This document shows, piece by piece, positions 1,472 through 11,859 of a stretch of 64,000 bases of DNA; position 1 is the first letter of the stretch, and the number at the start of each line of letters is the position of its first letter. A program made the translations under genes and the position numbers. Below the pieces are notes generated by a model. That model had not been told where the DNA came from. It did not search any database and was given only the letters and a program-made list of their open reading frames with translations. The stretch comes from Marinobacter arenosus. Its GTDB lineage: Bacteria; Pseudomonadota; Gammaproteobacteria; Pseudomonadales; Oleiphilaceae. Where the stretch lies: NCBI RefSeq assembly GCF_019264345.1, contig NZ_JAHVAO010000001.1:1488001-1552000 (forward strand), given 5' to 3'.

Positions 1472-2455
1472 TCAAGGCAAGGCCGTATGAGACCCGGGGA
1501 TGTTTTTCAGAAGCTCGGCATTGGTGGGGTACTTCTCGAGCAGCTCAACCAGCTTTTTTGTGCCCTCCAGCGGTTTGAGACCGCCAAGCGCCCGGCGCAA
1601 CGCTCTTATTTTGTCTAAATCTTTTGGATCTAAGAGCAGCTCTTCACGGCGTGTACTGCTTTTCGAAATATCCAGCGCGGGAAAGATCCGCTGATTCGCA
1701 ACGTCTCTCGATAAAACCAGCTCCATGTTCCCCGTGCCCTTAAATTCCTCAAAGATCACCTGGTCCATACGGCTGCCGGTATCCACCAGAACGGTTGCCA
1801 AAATGGTCAGCGAGCCGCCATTCTCAATGTTTCGTGCCGCGCCAAACAACCTCCGCGGGATCTCCATCGCTCGAGCATCCATCCCGCCGGACATAGTACG
1901 ACCGCTGCTCTTTCTCTCCGCATTGTGCACACGCGCAAGCCTGGTGAGAGAATCAATCACAATCATGACGTTGTGACCCTCGCCAGCTTGTTGGCGAGCG
2001 ATATCAAGAAGCTCATTGGCAACGCGAGCGTGATGCGCATAGCTTTCATCCGACGAAGAAGCGTGTACCTCAGCCGGGACGCTACGCCTGAAATCGGTGA
2101 CCTCTTCGGGTCGCTCATCTACCAATAACGCGTAAAGTTTAATCTCGGGATACGCCTTTCCCACCGCCTGGCAAATATGCTTTAAGATCGTCGATTTTCC
2201 AGACCCCGGCGGTGCAACGATCAAACCTCGCTGCCCCATGCCAATCGGCGTGATCAAATCCATCGCGCGCACCGTGAGCTGTTCGGAACCCAACTCCAGG
2301 CGAATCCCCGGCGCCGGATTGATAGCCACAGCATTTAAAAAACGTTTTTGTGGATCAGCGTCACCTTCGACCCCAACCACAGCTTCGGCTTTCTCAGCCA
2401 CGGATTTAGCGTCTTTGTTTCGTTTTCGGGTTAAACCTAATGTCTTTCTCGTCAT
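1472..2455 (-). CDS. Rho-type transcription terminator paralogue lacking the RNA-binding N-domain
   Basis: 327 residues, against about 419 for standard Rho. After a short basic leader ([15 protein letters not shown]) the sequence enters the Rho ATPase core directly. Visible are Walker [10 protein letters not shown] (81-89; standard Rho has PPKAGKT), the catalytic DERPEE (113-118), Walker [13 protein letters not shown], the Q-loop region [14 protein letters not shown], the R-loop [11 protein letters not shown] and an arginine-finger segment STRREELL. All catalytic and ring-contact motifs remain, but the N-terminal OB-fold that makes the primary RNA-binding site is absent. It is therefore probably an active hexameric RNA translocase with altered RNA loading, alongside a normal rho elsewhere. 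No good Shine-Dalgarno is visible at ATG 2455, and no upstream coding sequence for a lost OB domain was seen. Confidence 0.85.
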
Positions 2456-2600
2456 GATTGTTTGATAGCTCGCAAAGGTCTGCGCTGACCGATGGGTTGG
2501 ACGCGTTGTGTGGGATTATTGATCGGGTGTGAACGAACGAAAGTGGGAACAAGGCCGCACTTGGCAGCATTCAGCCTCCGTACAGTATAGTATCCAAACA

Positions 2601-2623
2601 AATAAATCTGTCCCGGTTTTCGG
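2601..2623 (+). repeat. Dispersed repeat unit (ATCTGTCCCGGTTTTC type)
   Basis: AATAAATCTGTCCCGGTTTT at 2601-2620 is followed by CGG. Closely related units occur at 3401-3417 and 3658-3677 in the same orientation, and a paired form at 513-551. All are intergenic or at gene ends. Similar motifs are known around REP-associated tyrosine transposase loci in gammaproteobacteria, but no transposase gene is visible here. Confidence 0.55.
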
Positions 2624-2689
2624 ACCTTCGTGCGACTGCTCCACGGACCCAACGGAGGGCATTCAAACTGCAATCAGGTGACATTGGCA

Positions 2690-3370
2690 ATGAGCGAGAC
2701 AACCGAGGATAAAACCGCATCAGCCCCGCCACCGGCAAAGAAGGGCTTCAGTGGCTTGCATGTCTTTGGCATTGTCCTGCTCACCATCGTTGCCACCGTC
2801 GGCGTCGGTTACTGGTGGTTAAGCCACTATGTGTTTCCTGAGAACTTCGAACCCGTAACCCTGAATGCCAGTGAACAGGATTCCCTCAACAACAAACTGA
2901 ATACGCTGGGCATTGATACCCAAGGCGGCGAATCCGGCCGCCCGTTGCAGCCGGTACCCTACAGTGAGGAAGGCGCCAGCCGGGAAGTACGCTTTAGCGA
3001 GCGGGAACTCAACGGTATGCTGGCCAATAACACTGATCTGGCTCAAAGACTCGCCGTCGACCTTTCGGACGATCTGCTGAGCGCTGTCCTTCTGGTGCCT
3101 CTTGACGAGGACTTCCCGGTACTCGGCGGCCGAACCCTACGAGTCAATGCCGGTGTGGAACTCTCCTTTGCCAACGGTCGCCCCCTGGTCAAGTTAAGGG
3201 GCGTCAGCCTCATGGGCGTACCCATTCCGAATGCCTGGCTAGGCAACCTCAAGAATGTGGACTTGGTCAACGAGTTCGGCGCCAACCCGGGATTCTGGCA
3301 ATCCTTTGCAGCGGGTGTGGATTATATCCAGGTTGAGGATGGCCGGTTGCTCGTCCGGCTTAAGGAATAG
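2690..3370 (+). CDS. Membrane-anchored periplasmic protein of unknown function
   Basis: Start ATG 2690 (MSETTEDKTASAPP) is preferred over the longer frame because AGGTG lies 9 bases upstream. 226 residues: a short charged cytoplasmic tail, one membrane segment at about 25-47 (FGIVLLTIVATVGVGYWW), then a soluble domain that ends LEDGRLLVRL-like (VEDGRLLVRLKE). The domain contains repeated short beta-strand-like stretches and the phrase RFSERELNGMLANN, as in lipid- or membrane-associated arginine-rich anchors of unknown role. It is flanked on both sides by copies of the CTGTCCCGG repeat, so it may be a mobile or recently inserted unit. No function is assigned. Confidence 0.75.
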   Translation: MSETTEDKTASAPPPAKKGFSGLHVFGIVLLTIVATVGVGYWWLSHYVFPENFEPVTLNASEQDSLNNKLNTLGIDTQGGESGRPLQPVPYSEEGASREVRFSERELNGMLANNTDLAQRLAVDLSDDLLSAVLLVPLDEDFPVLGGRTLRVNAGVELSFANGRPLVKLRGVSLMGVPIPNAWLGNLKNVDLVNEFGANPGFWQSFAAGVDYIQVEDGRLLVRLKE

Positions 3371-3720: not shown

Positions 3721-4704
3721 TCAACCTTCAAATTTCAACAAAACAATAGGCTCCTCGGATTCATCCTTTAACGATCTGATATATTCAGGCCCGGATATAC
3801 CTCGGGCATCTAATTCCTCGATCAGGATGGGCTTGGTCATCGCGGCATCGGTAACGTCACGGAGTCCAGTCACAAGATTTTTTACCCCTGCGGTCTTGTT
3901 GGCGTGCTCTCCAGAAACCCGCTCTCGGAGGTCCTGATGCATTATCAGACGCTTTTGGCTCAGGTCATAAGGCGTCAATTCGTCAAACAACTCGGAGTAT
4001 GAGTCTGCAATTGAGACTGAGTTATAGTGTGCAGAATCGTATTCATCAGCCAACAGGTAAGCCTCAACCCTCGCATTATCACTTAGCAGGAGCGCACTTG
4101 TGAGTTGGGTGAAGAGTTGTTCGTCAAAGGTATTCTGTTGCAGTTGGTATTCAATATGCCCGCGTATGCCCGACCGAAGCTCACTCAATCTGGATGCTGC
4201 TGACAACAATTCAGCTTTGGGGGCGGAAAGCCTTTTAGTGGCCTCGATACCTTCCAGGACACCGCGAAGACTATGCAAATCCCGATAGAGTTGATTCAGA
4301 TAGAGCTCCGCAAATTTCTGATCAATCTTGCGTGAGAGTTTCTCCAGAGTTTGTTTAATACTGCTGAGCTTTTTGCTGACGACAGCAAAACCAACAACAC
4401 TGACACCAATCCCGGCCAACCCCACGCCAAGGTTTGCGTATTGCAGCACCTGAAGACCTTCAACCATCTTTTTTAGCTGAGCCAGCTGAGCGTTGGCTAC
4501 CAATGAGGAGGTGGCATCCAGGGCGGAGAAAGGTGATCCCGCCAGTGAACCCACCAGCTGTTGACCGAGACTTGTTTCTTGGAGGTGCGCAACAATTTTT
4601 CCAGTTTGGGTGTCTTTTATAATGGAGCCAAACCTTTCCAGCGATTTGGTAGCAATCCCATATTGGAATTCCACTGGCACCTGAAATATAAACTTCTCAA
4701 ACAC
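3721..4704 (-). CDS. Helical protein with a central hydrophobic segment (pair member B)
   Basis: 327 residues from GTG 4704, overlapping the end of the upstream gene by 8 bases in another frame, so the two are translationally coupled. The first ~85 residues are amphipathic. A hydrophobic stretch follows at about 90-112 (YANLGVGLAGIGVSVVGFAVV), then a long heptad-rich helix (KKLSSIKQTLEKLSRKIDQKF) and a helical C-terminal half rich in Leu, Arg and Glu. The pattern of a membrane hairpin followed by coiled coil recalls alpha-pore-forming toxins and dynamin-associated helical proteins, but I see no diagnostic motif and assign no family. It lacks a signal peptide. Confidence 0.75.
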   Translation of the reverse strand: MFEKFIFQVPVEFQYGIATKSLERFGSIIKDTQTGKIVAHLQETSLGQQLVGSLAGSPFSALDATSSLVANAQLAQLKKMVEGLQVLQYANLGVGLAGIGVSVVGFAVVSKKLSSIKQTLEKLSRKIDQKFAELYLNQLYRDLHSLRGVLEGIEATKRLSAPKAELLSAASRLSELRSGIRGHIEYQLQQNTFDEQLFTQLTSALLLSDNARVEAYLLADEYDSAHYNSVSIADSYSELFDELTPYDLSQKRLIMHQDLRERVSGEHANKTAGVKNLVTGLRDVTDAAMTKPILIEELDARGISGPEYIRSLKDESEEPIVLLKFEG

Positions 4705-5389
4705 GGTGCAGCTCCTCCAGGTAAGCAGTTGCGGCAGATCTTATGTGGTGTTGGAGCGCAGTTCTTACGGAAGGCTTTTCAGGTGAGGCGCCCAAAACAG
4801 TCGATTTGATAGTCTCTCCCACTGAATCCTTGAGCTCACGAATGGCTTTATCCTTGAAGGTTGAAAGCCTGGACCCGCCAAAAACCGCCATTGTGCCTAT
4901 AACCGCTGCACCGCCGATAGCAATGGGCCAGCTGACAACTGTCACACCAAGCAACCCGAGACCAAATCCTGCAGACTGGGCTGACAATGTTGCAACAGCC
5001 GGTATGCCCAAAAGCGCAACTCCCGTAGTGGTTGTTGCCAAGCCTAGCTGGGTCACATTTTTAAACGAAGTGTCCGCAGCAACCCATTCGTTAACACTGG
5101 CCTTATATTCCAGAATATTTTGATTAATTGACTCGAGATCCTTCTCGGCTAATCTCATGATCTGTTCGGACTCTCTGCTCACCCAACGTTTATAGGTCGG
5201 CTGAAGGTGTTTTTCAGCAAAGTCCTTCGTTCTAAAGGTTTCCTTAAATGAGATGTGATCAATCTGCACATTAAGAAGTGCAATTAACTCCGGAAGGTCC
5301 TTTTCAAGTGTTGCGGGAACTTGCGTCAACCATTTGTCTCGCCAATCGAGGATTTGGCGCCGCAAACCCATTAATTCCATGTCTCTCAT
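4697..5389 (-). CDS. Helical protein with a long hydrophobic hairpin (pair member A)
   Basis: 230 residues from ATG 5389. The N-terminal ~110 residues are charged helices. A long Gly/Ala-rich hydrophobic hairpin spans about 115-170 (LGLATTTTGVALLGIPAV, then GFGLGLLGVTVVSWPIAIGG), followed by an amphipathic helix (FKDKAIRELKDSVGETIKS). It is the first gene of a two-gene unit with the 3721 gene. Membrane insertion of a paired complex is a reasonable inference, and a toxin or defence effector is possible, but nothing in the sequence proves it. The pair sits beyond the last attC of the cassette array, so it may be a flanking chromosomal unit and not a cassette. Confidence 0.75.
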   Translation of the reverse strand: MRDMELMGLRRQILDWRDKWLTQVPATLEKDLPELIALLNVQIDHISFKETFRTKDFAEKHLQPTYKRWVSRESEQIMRLAEKDLESINQNILEYKASVNEWVAADTSFKNVTQLGLATTTTGVALLGIPAVATLSAQSAGFGLGLLGVTVVSWPIAIGGAAVIGTMAVFGGSRLSTFKDKAIRELKDSVGETIKSTVLGASPEKPSVRTALQHHIRSAATAYLEELHRV

Positions 5390-5453: not shown

Positions 5454-5537
5454 TTATAACGCCGCCAGCATGCGCGGCTTTTTAGAGGAGGCATAGCCGC
5501 AACGAAAAAGACGTCGCCATGCCTGGCCTTGTTAGGC
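5454..5537 (-). repeat. attC recombination site of cassette 5 (array end)
   Basis: On the minus strand it begins with R'' GCCTAAC (5531-5537), which supplies the TAA stop of the 5532 gene. The fold arms are GCCAGCATG against CATGCCTGGC, with one extra unpaired base as is typical of attC. It ends at GTTATAA (5454-5460). That last core is poor, as expected where an array meets non-cassette DNA. Confidence 0.75.
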
Positions 5538-6230
5538 ACCAACTGCATCCAACGCCTGTTCAGCTGTGAGATATGCTTTGCGTGCTTCATCGAAGCTGAC
5601 ATCTCTGCCATGAACCGCCCGATTGCAAATCGCGATTGAATACGATAGCCGTTCGGCGAGATTAGCCGATATGTACTCGCGCTCTGACAAAATCCGGAGC
5701 ACCTGGCCGGCACTCTTGAGATGCCGATCCTTGAAGCCGTGTTCAGTTGCAAACTTTCTAAGCCGAATTTCAACTTCCCGCCTCAGCCGTGACAGCGCGT
5801 TCCAAACTTCCCCGGCTTCAAGCTCCGAAACGACCTTGGACATGGGACCCTGGGGTGCCTTTCGAGTGAATTTGAGCTCACCAAACTGTGACGTAACGTT
5901 CGAAGTAGCCTCTTCGGCCTTTTCAACTTCTTCATCTGTACCCAGAAAGTCCACTAAACCGGTCAAGTACTTATCAATAGTTTGGGCGACATCGCGATTG
6001 ACGGTGTATTCTGCAACGTTGAATTCGCCAATCGTCTCATCTAAGAAGGCACCTAAAGCATCTAGGTCATTTGCCTCTAGCACTGTCTCAAGCCGCTTGG
6101 CCCGCGCCTCCCTGAGCTTGCGCTTTCTATCCCTTATGCTGTCGAACGCCTGAATGGCAGTAGCCGATATCGAACTTGCGGCAGCCGCCAGAGCGGCAGT
6201 CCCGACTAAGAGGGAAAATGGATCGCTCAT
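5532..6230 (-). CDS. Cassette 5 gene b: membrane-anchored protein with DUF4145/HEPN-like C-terminus
   Basis: 232 residues from ATG 6230, overlapping the stop of the 6227 gene (ATGA), so translationally coupled. A short hydrophobic N-terminus (LLVGTAALAAAASSISATA) is followed by a basic helix (RDRKRKLREARAKRLE), a helical middle, and a C-terminal region from about 150 with the phrase AICNRAVHGRD. That phrase resembles the conserved (R)xxHG segment of DUF4145/HEPN-type helical bundles; the spacing is not the classical Rx4-6H, so nuclease activity is doubtful. The protein ends ...DAVGA with the TAA lying inside the attC core GCCTAAC. Resistance or defence is a guess based on the cassette setting. 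Confidence 0.75.
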   Translation of the reverse strand: MSDPFSLLVGTAALAAAASSISATAIQAFDSIRDRKRKLREARAKRLETVLEANDLDALGAFLDETIGEFNVAEYTVNRDVAQTIDKYLTGLVDFLGTDEEVEKAEEATSNVTSQFGELKFTRKAPQGPMSKVVSELEAGEVWNALSRLRREVEIRLRKFATEHGFKDRHLKSAGQVLRILSEREYISANLAERLSYSIAICNRAVHGRDVSFDEARKAYLTAEQALDAVGA

Positions 6231-6616
6231 GAGGTTTCCCTGTAACGCTGGATGAAGTCCTTGATACCTCGAAATCTACTGTAAAGCTTCAGTGCTGAAG
6301 TGTACTGCTCATGCATTCTTCTAAGCTGAAAAAGTCGAACAACGCCAAATGTAGCACTGGCGGTTGCTAGAACCAGCGCTCCAGTTAATTCTAGTCCGCT
6401 GATTGTGATAGTTGATCCGGTTGCGGCAATAGACAAAGATCGAAAGTAGGCAATCAAAATAGCGACAGCCAAAGAAGCTGAGAGCCCGAGCGACCATTTA
6501 ATTACTGTCATTTCTCGCTCAAAATGCCAACCGAAGATCGTTTCAAGATGCTTTTCACCGTCTGGAACGTCCCCGGACACCAAGTCAATTAGCTGTCTAA
6601 GTTTTATCGACTTCAA
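6227..6616 (-). CDS. Cassette 5 gene a: small two-helix membrane protein (129 aa)
   Basis: The start is TTG 6616, chosen because a full AGGAGGT ribosome site lies 7 bases upstream and no ATG fits as well. Two membrane segments are visible at about 38-58 (IKWSLGLSASLAVAILIAYF) and 70-92 (ISGLELTGALVLATASATF). The soluble ends are charged (RLFQLRRMHEQY). It overlaps the 5532 gene by four bases. The two products probably work together at the membrane. No family recognised. Confidence 0.75.
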   Translation of the reverse strand: MKSIKLRQLIDLVSGDVPDGEKHLETIFGWHFEREMTVIKWSLGLSASLAVAILIAYFRSLSIAATGSTITISGLELTGALVLATASATFGVVRLFQLRRMHEQYTSALKLYSRFRGIKDFIQRYRETS

Positions 6617-6623
6617 ACTAGCA

Positions 6624-6630
6624 ACCTCCT
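6624..6630 (-). promoter_or_regulatory. Strong ribosome-binding site fixing a TTG start
   Basis: AGGAGGT on the minus strand, 7 bases before TTG 6616. It is the best Shine-Dalgarno in the island and decides the start of the 6227 gene. Confidence 0.7.
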
Positions 6631-6640
6631 ATCCCTTGCG

Positions 6641-6699
6641 GCCTAACGCTGCCAGCGGAGCGCAGCCTAGCTTCGTCCTGCTGGCAGGGCATGTTAGCC
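6641..6699 (-). repeat. attC site of cassette 4
   Basis: Minus-strand R'' GGCTAAC (6693-6699), folded arms CTGCCAGC (6649-6656) and GCTGGCAG (6680-6687), and a canonical GTTAGGC (6641-6647) at the far end. 59 bases, close to the classical 59-base element. It starts three bases after the stop of the 6702 gene. Confidence 0.85.
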
Positions 6700-6701
6700 A
6701 A

Positions 6702-7994
6702 TTACCATTGGGGCACATTTGGTTGCTTACCCCTTGATGCAGAAACCCTGTTGATTACACGAGTGTACTCATCCTTGAAATCCCGGGTTTTCAGCAAACC
6801 AATCGCGTGATTTTTCATTTCTAAAACTGTATTTATTGGAATGCTTGCAATTAGTCCAATAACATCTTTTATAAACCCATATATAGTTTCGCAGGCATTA
6901 TCCGGCCCTTCACTCAACTGATAAAAATCTTTACCTTCATGAACGAGCTTGTTCCTTACATCAGTGTATAGTCGATCATATTCTTCAAGTTTCGTTCCAA
7001 AGCTGGCAGGATCCCCACCGGAAAGTAATGATGCGATATAGGTTCTATGCTTCCAACCATTCCAGTCTGGGTCGGCCAGGCCATCTAGAGTAAATACTAA
7101 ATTCAGGAATTGAGATTCATTGCCTATTGAATAGAACGACTGTCGACAAGATCTTAATGCTGAAATAACAGCCTTTGCCATTTCATTCTCAAATTCATTG
7201 CCATATATGAAAGAAAGATAATCAATCCCTGGAACAAAAAAATCATCTACTTGAGGGCCTAGCCAGTTATTACTAACAGAGATTGGCTTAGATATTCCGC
7301 TTAGCTCAAAAGGTTTTAGATGAGTTTCTCCCAGCGGAATAATATTTACAGAATAGAAGCCATCATCCGTTTGGCCAGCGGGGTTTGGTGTGAATTCTGG
7401 AGTCAAAAAAGAGCTATGCGAATACCTCACTATATCCATTGCATGCTCTGCAAGCGATAGGCATTTTTTGATAACGTGGTCGTTATGTTTTATGCTATTA
7501 TTTATACGTAAAAGATCTTTGTATTTTAGGTCTATTTCAAATTGAAGATATTCACACTCGAAATCAGCCAGCCTTTCATAAGGATTTTCATCAAAAATCT
7601 TTTTACAAAAAAAAGTATATTTACCTAATGTTAAAGTTTTTTGAAAATATACTTTTTCAAGAGGGACAATTACTATACAATCCAAGTTTCTTTCATCATC
7701 CTCCAGCTTTGACAATTCAGAATTTGAATCTTGGGTTACTGTCTTTTCAATTACAACCCAATCGAAACACTCCTGGAAATCAGCAAGCATCTCTTCGCCG
7801 TTTCTTTTAATGGAATCATCATAGATATTAAATGTTATGCCATCACCTTCAGGAAAAGGGCTTGCCCAATAGCCTATCTCTCTTAATTTCTCTAAAGATT
7901 TTTCAATTTTCGCCTTCTCATCGATAAATTCGCGCTTATTCCAAAGCAAATTGCCTGAGTAATTCTCTCTTGGAGGTAATAACCTTGCTTTCAT
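6702..7994 (-). CDS. Cassette 4 gene: Apea-like HEPN domain protein
   Basis: 430 residues from ATG 7994, with AAGGA six bases upstream. The C-terminal third carries VRNKLVHEGKDF, with Arg347 and His352 in the Rx4H spacing of HEPN RNases, and preceding helices (LEEYDRLYTD) typical of the Apea-like HEPN family. The first ~300 residues are a mixed alpha/beta region of unknown role, perhaps a sensor. No membrane segment. The gene is notably AT-rich beside the core genes, as expected of a captured cassette. HEPN proteins often cut RNA in phage defence and toxin systems, so an anti-phage role is plausible but not shown; no partner nucleotidyltransferase is adjacent. Confidence 0.75.
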   Translation of the reverse strand: MKARLLPPRENYSGNLLWNKREFIDEKAKIEKSLEKLREIGYWASPFPEGDGITFNIYDDSIKRNGEEMLADFQECFDWVVIEKTVTQDSNSELSKLEDDERNLDCIVIVPLEKVYFQKTLTLGKYTFFCKKIFDENPYERLADFECEYLQFEIDLKYKDLLRINNSIKHNDHVIKKCLSLAEHAMDIVRYSHSSFLTPEFTPNPAGQTDDGFYSVNIIPLGETHLKPFELSGISKPISVSNNWLGPQVDDFFVPGIDYLSFIYGNEFENEMAKAVISALRSCRQSFYSIGNESQFLNLVFTLDGLADPDWNGWKHRTYIASLLSGGDPASFGTKLEEYDRLYTDVRNKLVHEGKDFYQLSEGPDNACETIYGFIKDVIGLIASIPINTVLEMKNHAIGLLKTRDFKDEYTRVINRVSASRGKQPNVPQW

Positions 7995-8008
7995 TCATTT
8001 TCCTTTGG

Positions 8009-8082
8009 CGGCTGACGTCAGTAGTAATGGTCGCCGAGGGGTCGCAGCGTAGTAGGCGCCTCGCTGACCATATGGTTAGGCA
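8009..8082 (-). repeat. attC site of cassette 3
   Basis: R'' GCCTAAC (8076-8082) contains the TAA stop of the 8076 gene. Stem elements are TGGTC with GACCA and CGAGG with CCTCG, separated by a small mismatch. The far core is GTCAGCC (8009-8015), one base off GTTAGCC. That off-consensus core is still the partner of GGCTAAC at 6693-6699, so the variation belongs to cassette 4. Confidence 0.75.
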
Positions 8083-8546
8083 TTTGAATCCTCCGACCAA
8101 GGCTGGTGTGGCTCAGAGTGCGTAAGCCCGTTCTCTTCTAACTCATTAATAGCTCTGTCACCGAGCAGAAGTAGGTTCTCTGCAGCATCAGGGGACAACT
8201 CCCCCGCTTTATAAAGTGGAAGCATCAACTCTAGATTTGCAAGGTAACCAGACAGCCGATCCTGCTCTTTAGGTGTCAAAATCTCCGACTCGGCCATCAA
8301 ATTTTCAAGCCTTTCAAGCATAACGGCTAATTCGTCGCTTGAGACAATAACGGATTCAGGCGTATTGATACTTGGATCGACAAGGGCCCCAAATGTCGGT
8401 CTTAGCCTGTAAATTTTGATGCTGAGCCGCATCCGGAGATTCCTGGCTTTTGACTTAGTCGCCCAGTTGGCTCGAAATATTGGAATCAAGGCAACTATCG
8501 CAGCGAAACATGCGGCTATTGATGAAATTGCCTGCCAAGATTCCAT
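8076..8546 (-). CDS. Cassette 3 gene: small membrane-anchored protein (156 aa)
   Basis: Starts at ATG 8546 with GGAAGG upstream. An N-terminal membrane helix (about 6-25, AISSIAACFAAIVALIPIF) is followed by a basic cluster (RANWATKSKARNLRMR) and an acidic, helical soluble domain with no cysteine or recognisable catalytic motif. The topology suggests a membrane anchor with a cytoplasmic domain. The TAA stop is part of the attC core. No function can be given. Confidence 0.7.
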   Translation of the reverse strand: MESWQAISSIAACFAAIVALIPIFRANWATKSKARNLRMRLSIKIYRLRPTFGALVDPSINTPESVIVSSDELAVMLERLENLMAESEILTPKEQDRLSGYLANLELMLPLYKAGELSPDAAENLLLLGDRAINELEENGLTHSEPHQPWSEDSNA

Positions 8547-8565
8547 TGGGCTTCCCTTCCTTTGT

Positions 8566-8611
8566 GCCTAATGCGGCGTCTCACGCGTCCGTCTTACGTG
8601 ATTTGTTAATG
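8566..8611 (-). repeat. attC site of cassette 2
   Basis: A short site of 46 bases: R'' CATTAAC (8605-8611), arms TCACG and CGTGA, and ATTAGGC (8566-8572), where the usual G of GTT is A. CATTAAC is exactly complementary to GTTAATG at 9824-9830, the other end of the same cassette. Confidence 0.7.
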
Positions 8612-8612
8612 A

Positions 8613-9806
8613 CTACTTCCTACCTAGAGCAGAGATTGCATCCTTCAATAGGGCAATAAGCGATCTGCTACTTACTGATTCTGCATTTGCATCGATATTA
8701 TTATCAAAAGATTGACCGAAGAAACTATTCGAGAGTGCCTCTTTAATCTTATGTTTGGCATCATCCGGCAAATTCTCCAAGTAAGCGTCTATCGATGCCA
8801 GTTCTAGCTCAGTTCTTTTGTTCCGCTCTTCAATCGCCCTATGTCGACTCGACTCTCTTGCGGCATATGTAGCAGGTATTATTAGAATCAAACCGGCCGT
8901 AAACCTAAAGGCTGTTAGCCAAGGATCGAAACCATTCCTTGCCGCAGAAATCAATGTGACCCCTATAACAACAAACATCGCAGAGAAGCATCCGAGTGCT
9001 ATCCAACGCATCAGGTTCGCAGAGCTTCTCTCCCTCTCGGCTATGCCTCTATAGTTGCCCGTTAAGCCGATATTACCTACAAGCTGAACGATTTTCTCTG
9101 CTTCCTTCTTTTTTGAAGTGAGCTCGTCGACAATCTGTTTTGCTGTACCCTTTAACTCACTTTCTACCTCTTCATAACGACCTATCATTTTTTCTTGATT
9201 ATCTTGAAATATATTTTCCCTTTCGGACTCCTTTTCCGATAACGATTTATCTATCTCGTTAAACTTGGTGGAGATCTTTTCGTTCAGAGAGGCTAGCTCG
9301 CCATCAAGCTCATTGACTCGATTTTCGGAAACCTGGAGCGACCCTGAAACTTTATCGGCGATGTCTACTAACTCATCATTTTTCTGACGAAGTTCAGCAA
9401 TTACGTTTTCTGCGAGCTGCTTAAAAGATACTGCTTCGGACGCTCTTACTCCCCCTTCCGGGCTGTCAATACTGATGAGCAAGCGTGCCTGATTCAACGC
9501 AGCATCGGCCTGATTTGATGCGTTGGTCAGATGTCCGGCGTTGCTATTAGTGTTGTATTGGTTCAGTTCGTTGAGTATACCCTGTGCAGATTTTTCAAGA
9601 TTACTGAGTCGTCCTGCACTAGTTAAAACTGGACTGGCAAGCTCTAATCTTTGATCGATATAGCTAACGGCCTGCCGCAATCCGTCGAGATAATCAATAG
9701 CTGGAGAATCTGAGGCTTTGTTCTCAGCTTCCTTGAGCGCTTCCCTCAATTGAGAAACCACTTGGTGTACGTTGTGGTTCTGAAAGTTGTCTTCGAGTAA
9801 AGCCAA
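8613..9806 (-). CDS. Cassette 2 gene: coiled-coil protein with two membrane helices
   Basis: 397 residues. The start is TTG 9806, supported by AGGAG seven bases upstream. Residues 1-110 are helical; about 115-245 form a long coiled coil (LDGELASLNEKISTKFNEID). Two membrane segments follow at about 268-288 (WIALGCFSAMFVVIGVTL) and 298-315 (AFRFTAGLILIIPATYA), then a charged helix and a C-terminal tail of about 80 residues. The layout, coiled coil then hairpin anchor, resembles membrane-tethered sensor or motor-like proteins of phage-defence systems, but no known domain is visible. Confidence 0.75.
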   Translation of the reverse strand: MALLEDNFQNHNVHQVVSQLREALKEAENKASDSPAIDYLDGLRQAVSYIDQRLELASPVLTSAGRLSNLEKSAQGILNELNQYNTNSNAGHLTNASNQADAALNQARLLISIDSPEGGVRASEAVSFKQLAENVIAELRQKNDELVDIADKVSGSLQVSENRVNELDGELASLNEKISTKFNEIDKSLSEKESERENIFQDNQEKMIGRYEEVESELKGTAKQIVDELTSKKKEAEKIVQLVGNIGLTGNYRGIAERERSSANLMRWIALGCFSAMFVVIGVTLISAARNGFDPWLTAFRFTAGLILIIPATYAARESSRHRAIEERNKRTELELASIDAYLENLPDDAKHKIKEALSNSFFGQSFDNNIDANAESVSSRSLIALLKDAISALGRK

Positions 9807-9823
9807 AATCTATCTCCTAGGAT

Positions 9824-9901
9824 CATTAACGCAAAGCGCACCGCTGGCCTTTACAGAGCGAAGCGGCGTAAAGGACATCCGTGTGACGCGCATGGTTAGA
9901 C
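9824..9901 (-). repeat. attC site of cassette 1
   Basis: R'' GTCTAAC (9895-9901), inner arms CCTTTAC and GTAAAGG, outer pairing of GCGCAC-type with GTGTGACGCGC-type sequence, and GTTAATG (9824-9830). R'' is exactly complementary to the cassette's start core GTTAGAC at 10918-10924. It begins 63 bases after the stop of the 9965 gene. Confidence 0.8.
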
Positions 9902-9964
9902 ATCTCTTAAGCATTTCCGCATGTGCCAATTCCGTTCAGCCCTATTAGTCAAATCAGTTCAAGA

Positions 9965-10900
9965 TTATTTCTTCCTGTTACCTTTTCCTACGTTATTCAT
10001 GCTTCTGTAGTATCCTTCAATGTCTCCATACTCAGCAATCATTCTTAAAGGATTGTTAACAAGCGCGTTTTCTACATGATAATCTTCTATCGCGCAAAAA
10101 GAGCATAAATCGTGATCCTCACTTAACGGCTCACCACATTTTTCACAGACAAAATCGTATGATTTAAATCCATCTCCATCATGCTTATACCTTATCCCTT
10201 CATTGTCTACGAAATATGGACTTGGAGAAATTCGACTAATCCTTAGCTCTAGGTAATCAGCACCGATGTTATCCGCCACCTGTTTGGCACTGGTTTTGGC
10301 ATCTTCGTTAGCCTTTCCACCTACGATTATTGCGCTAATACAATCTGACGGGAACTTTAGAAGCATCAAGTCTCCACTGACTTCTACGTCACCATCGCTG
10401 GCAACTAACCTTCGCTCTTGCTCATAAGACCAGTGTGAGTGTTTTGTATAGTAGGCTGCGCTAAAAACACCTTTTTGAAGCAGATAATAATATCTAGGCT
10501 TTCCGATATGACATGCCCGGCTAAGCATATCTAATAGGTGATCACTCGGAGAGTCTTCATAGTCAATATCGCCGAAGCCAATATTCGGAAAGTTTTCTGA
10601 AAATCGCTTTTCATCGAACTCTAAAACAATTCCCGTATGACTGTGTCCATAGTGCGCCCACATGGGAATAACCGCAGGTGACTTAGAAAAGCATGTGGTC
10701 GGAAGTTGCGGCAAATCTCCAATAGCTTCATTGTAAGTCGCCAGCATCTCGGGAGACTGCTCAAAATTTATTGTTAGAAACAGCTCATATGGATCATTAA
10801 AGTCTTTAGGGTATGAACATTTAAAACTGCAGACATTGGGATCTTCTAAAGCCAACTGGAATACGTCCACACCCATATATTTGTATATCTTCGACGACAT
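9965..10900 (-). CDS. Cassette 1 gene: DUF2971 protein with C-terminal zinc ribbon
   Basis: 311 residues from ATG 10900, with a strong AGGGGGG ribosome site. DUF2971 features are clear: PKDFNDPYE (about 31-39), CFSKSP and MWAHYGHSHTGIVLEFD (about 80-96), and YEQERR near 160. A zinc ribbon CEKCGEPL...CSFC follows at about 252-272. DUF2971 proteins are widespread in accessory DNA and some occur in defence clusters, but the biochemical role is not known to me. It is the cassette nearest the attI-like site, so it would be the most recently inserted and the best expressed. Confidence 0.8.
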   Translation of the reverse strand: MSSKIYKYMGVDVFQLALEDPNVCSFKCSYPKDFNDPYELFLTINFEQSPEMLATYNEAIGDLPQLPTTCFSKSPAVIPMWAHYGHSHTGIVLEFDEKRFSENFPNIGFGDIDYEDSPSDHLLDMLSRACHIGKPRYYYLLQKGVFSAAYYTKHSHWSYEQERRLVASDGDVEVSGDLMLLKFPSDCISAIIVGGKANEDAKTSAKQVADNIGADYLELRISRISPSPYFVDNEGIRYKHDGDGFKSYDFVCEKCGEPLSEDHDLCSFCAIEDYHVENALVNNPLRMIAEYGDIEGYYRSMNNVGKGNRKK

Positions 10901-10917
10901 TCGCCGCCCCCCTTTTT

Positions 10918-10934
10918 GTCTAACAGTGTTTAGG
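10918..10934 (-). mobile_element. attI-like simple site at the head of the cassette array
   Basis: On the minus strand it reads CCTAAACACTGTTAGAC: two inverted core boxes, CCTAAA and GTTAGAC, with a 4-base spacer. The attI1 simple site has the same layout, CCTAAA then a short spacer then GTTAGGC. Cassette 1 begins right at this core. An AT-rich stretch at about 10985-11045 upstream could hold a cassette promoter. The integrase expected to the right is replaced by the NERD gene. Confidence 0.5.
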
Positions 10935-11085
10935 TACCGCGCTTCGTTATTGCAATCGTTTTACTGTCACAAAACGCTCCGATACTCACCTCACAATACT
11001 GAATATAATTTTCATGAAATCAATTCTCTATAAATGATCCTAATGCTGCTCACGCTGTAATCATTTGACTGCCTCGTTATTCCAG

Positions 11086-11859
11086 TCATGCAGCACTAAC
11101 AATCCCGCGACACGTCGGAAAGGACTTACAGCCCAAGAACTCCTTTCCTGCATTCGCCCCACGCTTCACCGTGCGCTTAACCATCTCCCCCCGGCACTTC
11201 GGGCACCGCGGCTCACTTTCTTTCTTGACCACGATCTCCTTCACATGCGCAACGTGCCTTCGGTGATTCCTGAATGTTGCCGCCAGTCGTCCGGACTCGA
11301 TAGTTTCGATAACCGTCTGAACCTCGTCATCCGACAGCCGCGTTTCCATTTGGGCTTTAATGAAGCGGATATATCCGCCCCCAGAGGTCACATTTTCTGG
11401 CATAGGCGTTTTGAACGTCGAATCCCCAACGAAAACCACCAACGAATGCACCTGCTCGTCGCCCAAGCCCAACAAGCTTTGCAGCGTTTTGACGTGTTTG
11501 TAGTTCTGGTGCAGCGGGTTCTGGAATTTCTGGGAATGCTTGAAGATTTTCTGGGTCCACTGGCGCTGTTTGGCGCTGCCAAAGATCCAGCCTTTCAGGT
11601 TCTTGGTTTCCACCACGAACATCCCATACCGGGAGACGATGATGTGGTCGATCTGAGTGGTTCCGTCTTCCGTGGGCAGGGTGACATTCTTGATAAGGTG
11701 GTAGTTATCTTTGTCGAGGAACAGGCGAGAAGAGGCGTTAACAATAAATTCGCCCAGATGGCCTTTGAACCAGGGAGAACGCAGGATGGCTAACAGCAGT
11801 ACGAAAGGTATGAAATACCAGAAGTGTAAAAGAGGCTTTATCAGTACTGAGGGGTCCAT
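11086..11859 (-). CDS. NERD-domain nuclease-like membrane protein with zinc ribbon
   Basis: 257 residues. A membrane helix lies at about 12-28 (HFWYFIPFVLLLAIL), followed by a NERD domain with GHLGEF (33-38), IDHIIVSRYGMFVVETKN, and the restriction-endonuclease-fold triad Asp71, Glu84, Lys86 (ExK). The C-terminus is a topoisomerase-type zinc ribbon, CPKCRGEM...GCKSFPTC (about 218-250). NERD proteins are predicted DNA or RNA processing nucleases, often with single-domain zinc ribbons like this. It is not flanked by attC on its far side, so it is chromosomal DNA next to the array. It probably reads toward the array head from its own promoter. Confidence 0.85.
   Translation of the reverse strand: MDPSVLIKPLLHFWYFIPFVLLLAILRSPWFKGHLGEFIVNASSRLFLDKDNYHLIKNVTLPTEDGTTQIDHIIVSRYGMFVVETKNLKGWIFGSAKQRQWTQKIFKHSQKFQNPLHQNYKHVKTLQSLLGLGDEQVHSLVVFVGDSTFKTPMPENVTSGGGYIRFIKAQMETRLSDDEVQTVIETIESGRLAATFRNHRRHVAHVKEIVVKKESEPRCPKCRGEMVKRTVKRGANAGKEFLGCKSFPTCRGIVSAA

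Follow-up and report, generated by a model that had tools for sequence, protein, structure and literature searches.

In one large survey, arrays of gene cassettes standing apart from any integron integrase gene (intI), termed clusters of attC sites lacking integron integrases (CALINs), numbered 2961 and complete integrons 2760, the two being equally common (PMC9024848). In the available accounts of the closest systems, a CALIN carried by a Shewanella prophage begins with an attI (PMC9892861), and in Xanthomonas an ancestral integron stood at ilvD, its intI was lost, and CALINs are found at other recurring loci (PMC12444791). The array described here lies in a 64,000-nucleotide stretch of Marinobacter arenosus DNA (the window; coordinates are counted from its first letter) and begins at an attI-type site with no intI beside it. 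We read it, with a probability of roughly 0.68, as a satellite integron platform that was loaded in trans by an integrase encoded elsewhere and is now partly decayed. Sequence comparison gives the anatomy of the cassettes, the homology of the edge to intI-linked attI, the absence of intI, the recurrence of the platform at many loci and the differing cassettes at one locus; from these we infer loading in trans, the kind of integrase that may have done it and the way in which the platform may have reached the locus.

The array resembles a CALIN as described in the part of PMC12444791 drawn on here, in that at least two attC sites lie on the same strand with cassette genes and intI is not near, and differs in that its first element is an attI-type site assignable to a particular integron type, at a locus also present in other species. 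It shares with the Shewanella case an attI heading an array that has no intI of its own; that case, in the account available, concerns a single cryptic prophage, close to which lies an identical attI (PMC9892861), whereas the Marinobacter arrays are chromosomal, occupy 48 loci in one genus and are mostly far from intI. A home locus for intI, repeated intI loss and CALINs at recurring loci are common to Xanthomonas and Marinobacter. The consulted portion of the Xanthomonas report does not mention an attI of the CALINs (PMC12444791), whereas the Marinobacter satellites begin with attI and their cassettes vary. The delta-attI cassettes of class 1 and 2 integrons also place an attI away from intI, but as far as that account goes the attI replaces the attC at a cassette end inside one array (PMC12901181), whereas the Marinobacter attI heads a distant, separate array. 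Within the literature searched, a genus-wide family of orphan attI platforms appears to be a new form of a known arrangement, the Shewanella prophage CALIN being the nearest precedent found.

The array and its upstream edge

The features are as follows, all on the minus strand. R1 is an attC covariance model, and family scores are alignment scores with the shuffle maximum in brackets; both are described in the next section.

11086-11859: NERD-domain gene (Pfam NERD, 5.7e-35), upstream of the platform and not a cassette
10918-11084: orphan attI platform, with distal box 11056-11084, proximal part 10921-10977 and core GTTA 10921-10924
10918-10924: insertion core GTTAGAC, the start of cassette 1, complementary to the attC1 R'' at 7/7 positions
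9965-10900: cassette 1 gene, DUF2971 (Pfam, 3.2e-9), candidate defence family PDC-S31 (PADLOC, 3.8e-27)
9824-9901: attC1; R1 48.4 bits (E 2.1e-8), family score 105 (66)
8613-9806: cassette 2 gene, coiled coil with one hydropathic segment; only weak coiled-coil matches
8566-8611: attC2, truncated; no R1 match, family score 60 (38)
8076-8546: cassette 3 gene, N-terminal hydropathic segment; stop codon within the attC3 R''
8010-8081: attC3, degenerate; R1 6.8 bits (E 5.3), family score 90 (60.5)
6702-7994: cassette 4 gene; family searches gave no match
6641-6699: attC4, borderline; R1 11.6 bits (E 0.45), family score 58 (55.5)
6227-6616: first gene of cassette 5, two hydropathic segments
5532-6230: second gene of cassette 5 (c5b), N-terminal hydropathic segment; stop codon within the attC5 R''
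5454-5537: attC5, intact; R1 61.3 bits (E 2.8e-11), family score 120 (70.5)
3721-5389: tail beyond attC5, consisting of a LeoBC-like gene (4697-5389) and a JukB-like gene (3721-4704)

An earlier note, made from the sequence of the window alone, had described five cassettes without an integrase. That array is borne out by attC sites belonging to families found in the genus, by the footprints at the cassette ends and by differing cassettes at the same locus in relatives. As a description it was incomplete: the note had placed the upstream edge at the first core and missed that the array begins at a whole attI-type site without intI. Several relatives conserve the stretch from the NERD gene to the first cassette as far as GTTA, with a different sequence beyond it in each, and nucleotide homology to two of them, G092 (85%) and G067 (77%), stops at 10920/10921, within the core. 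In one group of Marinobacter integrons a similar stretch separates intI from the first cassette. In a tree of integron integrase (IntI) sequences with 41 rows this group, B, makes up 15 rows (support 100/99) and group A 17 rows (100/97), including the IntI of this strain; there are two smaller groups.

A 45-nt position weight matrix (PWM) built from 14 intI-linked B-type attI sites finds its best match in the window at 10921-10965 on the minus strand, with 18.5 bits; the next match has 5.0 bits and the best of 20 shuffled windows 4.5. By homology to sites lying between intI and a first cassette the edge is a B-type attI, and since the leave-one-out scores of the training sites are 48.6-58.2 bits the window copy is a diverged one. 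Counterparts in the same place in other genomes score 41.3 (G067), 37.7 (G092), 33.3 (G005), 30.5 (G023), 20.9 (G102), 17.1 (G020), 8.9 (G050) and 5.4 bits (G054) with this PWM, and five other NERD loci score below zero. A longer profile (R2; 60 nt from 31 attI sites, with orphans among the training sites and the window excluded) matches the proximal part (10921-10977) with 31.3 bits and the distal box (11056-11084) with 13.5 bits. The strain's own A-type attI was considered as the parent of the edge and rejected, the best A-type PWM match in the window having -0.8 bits and lying elsewhere. The NERD gene was likewise dropped as a required partner of the orphan attI, because G013, G031 and G051 show the urease-attI join without it. 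At another urease-attI join (L254, in G113) the N-terminus of NERD is decayed, so that the gene seems to have been lost again there. A conserved block like GGGCTAAGCTNTTGTTTTATAAATTTATG, read by eye at about -115 to -90 from the core of many orphan and intI-linked attI, is perhaps a promoter.

attC sites and cassette ends

The five minus-strand units lie at 5454-10924, with attC-type sites between them at the coordinates first proposed. An integron cassette is recognised by an upstream core complementary to the R'' of its own attC, and this relation is seen throughout the array. The earlier note had reported it for every unit; it holds at 7/7 positions for cassettes 1 (GTCTAAC/GTTAGAC), 2 (CATTAAC/GTTAATG) and 5 (GCCTAAC/GTTAGGC) and at 6/7 for cassettes 3 (GCCTAAC/ATTAGGC) and 4 (GGCTAAC/GTCAGCC). 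When six positions are scored per core, own pairs agree at 29/30, a figure equalled by 2 of the 120 permutations, these ties arising because the R'' of cassettes 3 and 5 are identical. Two genes, those of cassette 3 and c5b, do take as their stop the TAA inside GCCTAAC.

R1 has 65 positions and 17 pairs and was built from 52 intI-linked attC of other Marinobacter genomes, all window sites being excluded; standard pairs make up 92.6% of its paired cells, a share that falls to 69.5% in shuffles and to 28.7-41.7% with the partners slid. A search of this kind had been proposed as a check, with the lack of any match counting against an array. Over the 64 kb at default filters and E<=10, attC5 and attC1 were returned and nothing else. 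With filters off over 8.7 kb, attC4 and attC3 appeared at the scores listed above and attC2 was absent from the matches at E<=10. In a separate test each site was given its best global alignment to 219 attC sites of the genus and compared with 60 shuffles of its inner part. attC1, attC2, attC3 and attC5 exceed their shuffles, attC2 and attC3 by a wide margin, and attC4 does so narrowly; in the alignment of attC2 the right arm has gaps totalling 13 nt. Of the five attC-like sites first listed, attC1 and attC5 are therefore upheld by the model and attC2 and attC3 by family, but attC2 is truncated and attC4 is borderline. Folding of the bottom strands, also proposed as a check, is not decisive alone: among 200 shuffles none is as good as attC5 (z -3.4) and eight are as good as attC4, which stands out weakly (z -2.0), but attC1, attC3 and attC2 are not distinct (17, 44 and 85 as good).

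The two model matches lie 4.3 kb apart on the same strand with weak sites between them, which is the clustering expected of a CALIN. By these comparisons the array is real and partly decayed. Because attC2 is truncated and attC3 and attC4 fall under the R1 threshold, probably not all five cassettes are still mobile.

Integrase and attC sites elsewhere in the genome

The absence of intI from the window, already noted from its reading frames, is confirmed: none of nine genomic matches to TIGR02249 falls there, so that the window has neither an intI adjoining its attI, as a complete integron would, nor an integron integrase near its attC cluster. A search of the genome for intI had been suggested, and it locates the sole integron integrase above the TIGR02249 cut-off (427 bits) on contig C5 (C5:465-1460), away from the array, the open reading frame (ORF) lying 465 nt from the contig end. 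The nearest named relatives of this IntI belong to Marinobacter species such as M. algicola (85%) and M. iranensis (87%). The IntI of two Oceanisphaera records (L120, L125) are 68% identical to it, as near as several Marinobacter IntI, which suggests a possible transfer between genera.

With R1 the whole genome yields at least 87 attC matches at E<=1 (150 of 3255 candidates scored). These form rows at C1:65-12212, C2:329989-337646 and C3:311216-313233 and throughout the small contigs C6 and C7, and there are isolated ones, including those of the window; the main chromosomal integron of the strain is split over several contigs. R2 gives five attI matches in the same genome (36.0, 33.0, 31.3 and 30.3 bits and a partial one of 17.6), each of the five followed by attC on its own strand. 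Isolated attC without a nearby attI match were also seen at C1:1636273 (43.7 bits), C1:2393727 (37.4 bits) and C3:277486 (48.9 bits).

Orphan attI sites in the genus

The edge pattern, with up to three mismatches, occurs at 19 places in 18 of 124 Marinobacter genomes, and 16 of these places have an attC within 1.5 kb (E<=1); read backwards it does not occur in the 124 genomes. A census with R2 at 40 bits or more found at least 111 matches in 70 of the 124 genomes. If a match counts as intI-linked when a divergent intI match lies no more than 600 nt away, 28 are intI-linked and 83, in 60 genomes, are orphans. These counts are lower bounds, at most 44 candidates having been scored per genome under strict filters, and cover B-type attI only; the window and the other attI of its genome fall below the 40-bit line and so outside the census.

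Neighbourhoods were retrieved for 80 of the 83 orphans, which do not include the NERD-attI joins of G054, G020, G050 and G102 (5.4 to 20.9 bits). A downstream attC on the same strand is present at 72 of the 80, the first at a median of 594 nt. Near the orphans 187 attC reach E<=0.01, of which 186 lie downstream on the same strand, one upstream and none on the opposite strand. No attC was seen at the remaining eight (L278, with 41 nt of downstream sequence, L296, L337, L341, L347, L348, L350 and L364). Since R2 had been trained partly on orphans, the sites were checked separately with the PWM made from intI-linked sites only: all 80 score at least 11.4 bits and 79 at least 15, a value that no other place reaches in 453 kb searched on both strands.

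TIGR02249 matches at E<=1e-40 are present in 94 of the 124 genomes, truncated copies counted. In an order-wide sample searched with R2 (E<=1e-5), 15 of 293 genomes, in 4 of 118 genera, have a match: 12 are Marinobacter, one belongs to another genus of the family (six matches) and two match weakly. The platform of G092 has no match in plasmids or phages and the intI-linked platform of G001 none in plasmids. Related species carry many outposts with different genes, so that Marinobacter integrons seem to occupy several chromosomal sites and not a single one. At L291 (G020), L299 (G109), L196 and L197 (both G020) a transposon end breaks a LexA-like box between intI and attI.

Loci and cassette turnover

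Grouped by their upstream ORFs, the 80 orphans and the window fall into 48 locus groups, the largest being the urease locus, with 12 genomes. The first ORFs after attI were picked mechanically. At the urease locus the first ORF is common to none of the 66 genome pairs and any ORF within 4.2 kb to 4/66; over all ten groups with several genomes the figures are 0/111 and 12/111. A gene order conserved without variation had been named as an outcome that would speak against an array; in these relatives the order is not conserved.

Alignments between loci that reach the core (n=1768) start at -190 to -171 in 370 cases and at -60 to -41 in 811, with 89 passing -200. The first of these peaks fits a unit of about 185 nt, and many orphan copies have only the proximal 60 nt in common. 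A derived palindromic left end, CTTCGTTATTGCAATAAYGAAG, is present at four unrelated loci (urease and three others), and all 16 of its matches in 451,585 bp lie at platform ends.

Probable origin and loading of the platform

On the favoured reading, an attI of a B-type Marinobacter integron, about 170-185 nt long, would stand at the urease/NERD locus without intI and hold its own row of cassettes. These would have entered at the GTTA core by attI x attC recombination, carried out by an integron integrase whose gene lies, or in an ancestor lay, at another place in the genome, and in this strain the platform would be ageing, its attI diverged, attC2 truncated and attC3 and attC4 degenerate. We count in favour of loading in trans that cassettes turn over at the urease locus without intI or a trace of it. 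Several observations weigh against the reading. Among the 60 orphan-bearing genomes 18 have a full-length B-type IntI (one with an internal stop), 20 have other types only and 22 have none; at the urease locus the corresponding numbers are 1, 4 and 7 of 12, and this strain has the A type only (the type was assigned by where the TIGR02249 match starts, and for the 41 rows of the tree the two agree). The core is broken or missing in three of the five attI matches of the strain's own genome, and the palindromic left end is not recognisable in the window or shown by G075 and G042. Remnants of intI are present at six orphan loci (among 75 orphans with at least 1 kb upstream), and in G095 and G116 the intI at nrdB is internally deleted with attI and attC still present, so that loss of intI in place does happen. 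Given these IntI counts, loading may be past, occasional or the work of a non-cognate integrase.

Loss in place is the core of an alternative in which the window is the fossil of a complete integron, its local intI deleted or replaced by the NERD gene and its cassettes inserted in cis and static since. The decay of intI in place at nrdB in other species agrees with this, as do the decaying attC sites of the window and the half of the LexA-like box of the intI promoter, kept in 14/14 intI-linked sites, that 28 of 81 orphan copies retain. The urease locus itself argues otherwise: there is no intI trace in the upstream stretches of the 11 retrieved genomes or beside the site in the window, the palindromic left end is present in 9/12 of its genomes and 0/14 intI-linked sites, and the first cassettes differ in all 66 pairs. 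Moreover, B-type intI adjoins nrdB at 14 of the 17 loci examined (one copy truncated), where 5 of 79 orphans lie, four of them with intI remnants. We regard a fossil origin of this array as unlikely, and the loci together may be read as two routes, loss of intI in place at some and spread of a bare platform at others. It is very improbable that IntI put cassettes of the main integron off target into a chance chromosomal GTT (attG) with no attI. Insertion at attG is documented, as far as the cited accounts extend (PMC12444791, PMC12901181), and the strain has an IntI and many cassettes. An attG is, however, a GTT core without attI or attC homology, and here intI-linked attI are matched over the 45-60 nt that precede the core, the distal box lies at attI spacing and the same element heads arrays at 48 loci.

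That intI and the array are true neighbours parted by assembly or by a transposon is scarcely credible. Many of the genomes are drafts, and two orphan loci, L291 and L299, start inside a transposon end located at the LexA-like box, but the window lies in the interior of a 3.1 Mb contig and has the same urease neighbours as in relatives. In the single-contig genomes G011, G026 and G115 an intI-linked attI and an attC-bearing orphan are at least 0.7 Mb apart, and assembly splitting therefore cannot account for all orphans. Nor can appreciable weight be given to repeats and short cores mimicking an array by chance: at default filters the attC model misses three of the five sites, but the two strong matches, family scores above all shuffles for 5/5 sites (attC4 narrowly), the paired cores and the attI edge refute it.

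Satellite platforms loaded in trans could form part of a wider arrangement, a distributed integron, which we put forward tentatively for Marinobacter. Many attI platforms, each about 185 nt long and dispersed along the chromosome, would be served by an integrase, and the platform, bounded by defined ends, would itself spread as a unit. Each platform would gather its own cassettes, and several first-position cassettes would therefore stand beside an attI leader at once. If many CALINs start at an orphan attI, they would be docking sites and not merely random insertions or debris, and one genome's integron could have several first positions. The edges of CALINs could then be found with genus-specific attI models, which, by the part of the report used here, standard tools lack outside class 1, IntegronFinder detecting attI for class 1 only (PMC9024848).

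Cassette genes and flanks

A hydropathic segment is predicted in 4/6 cassette proteins, and the cassette genes look accessory, perhaps anti-phage. An Rfam scan covering 12 kb found nothing at E<=1. The JukB-like (PADLOC, 2.6e-11) and LeoBC-like (1.1e-6) genes, which lie between attC5 and the left flank, overlap and may form a two-gene defence module without an attC of its own. As no attC was found after this tail it is not established as a cassette; it is missing at the equivalent position in G092. On the far side of the array a rho-like gene and its neighbour (2630-3370) are swapped in order relative to G092, with their strands kept (window 1472-3370 versus L226:5517-7421).

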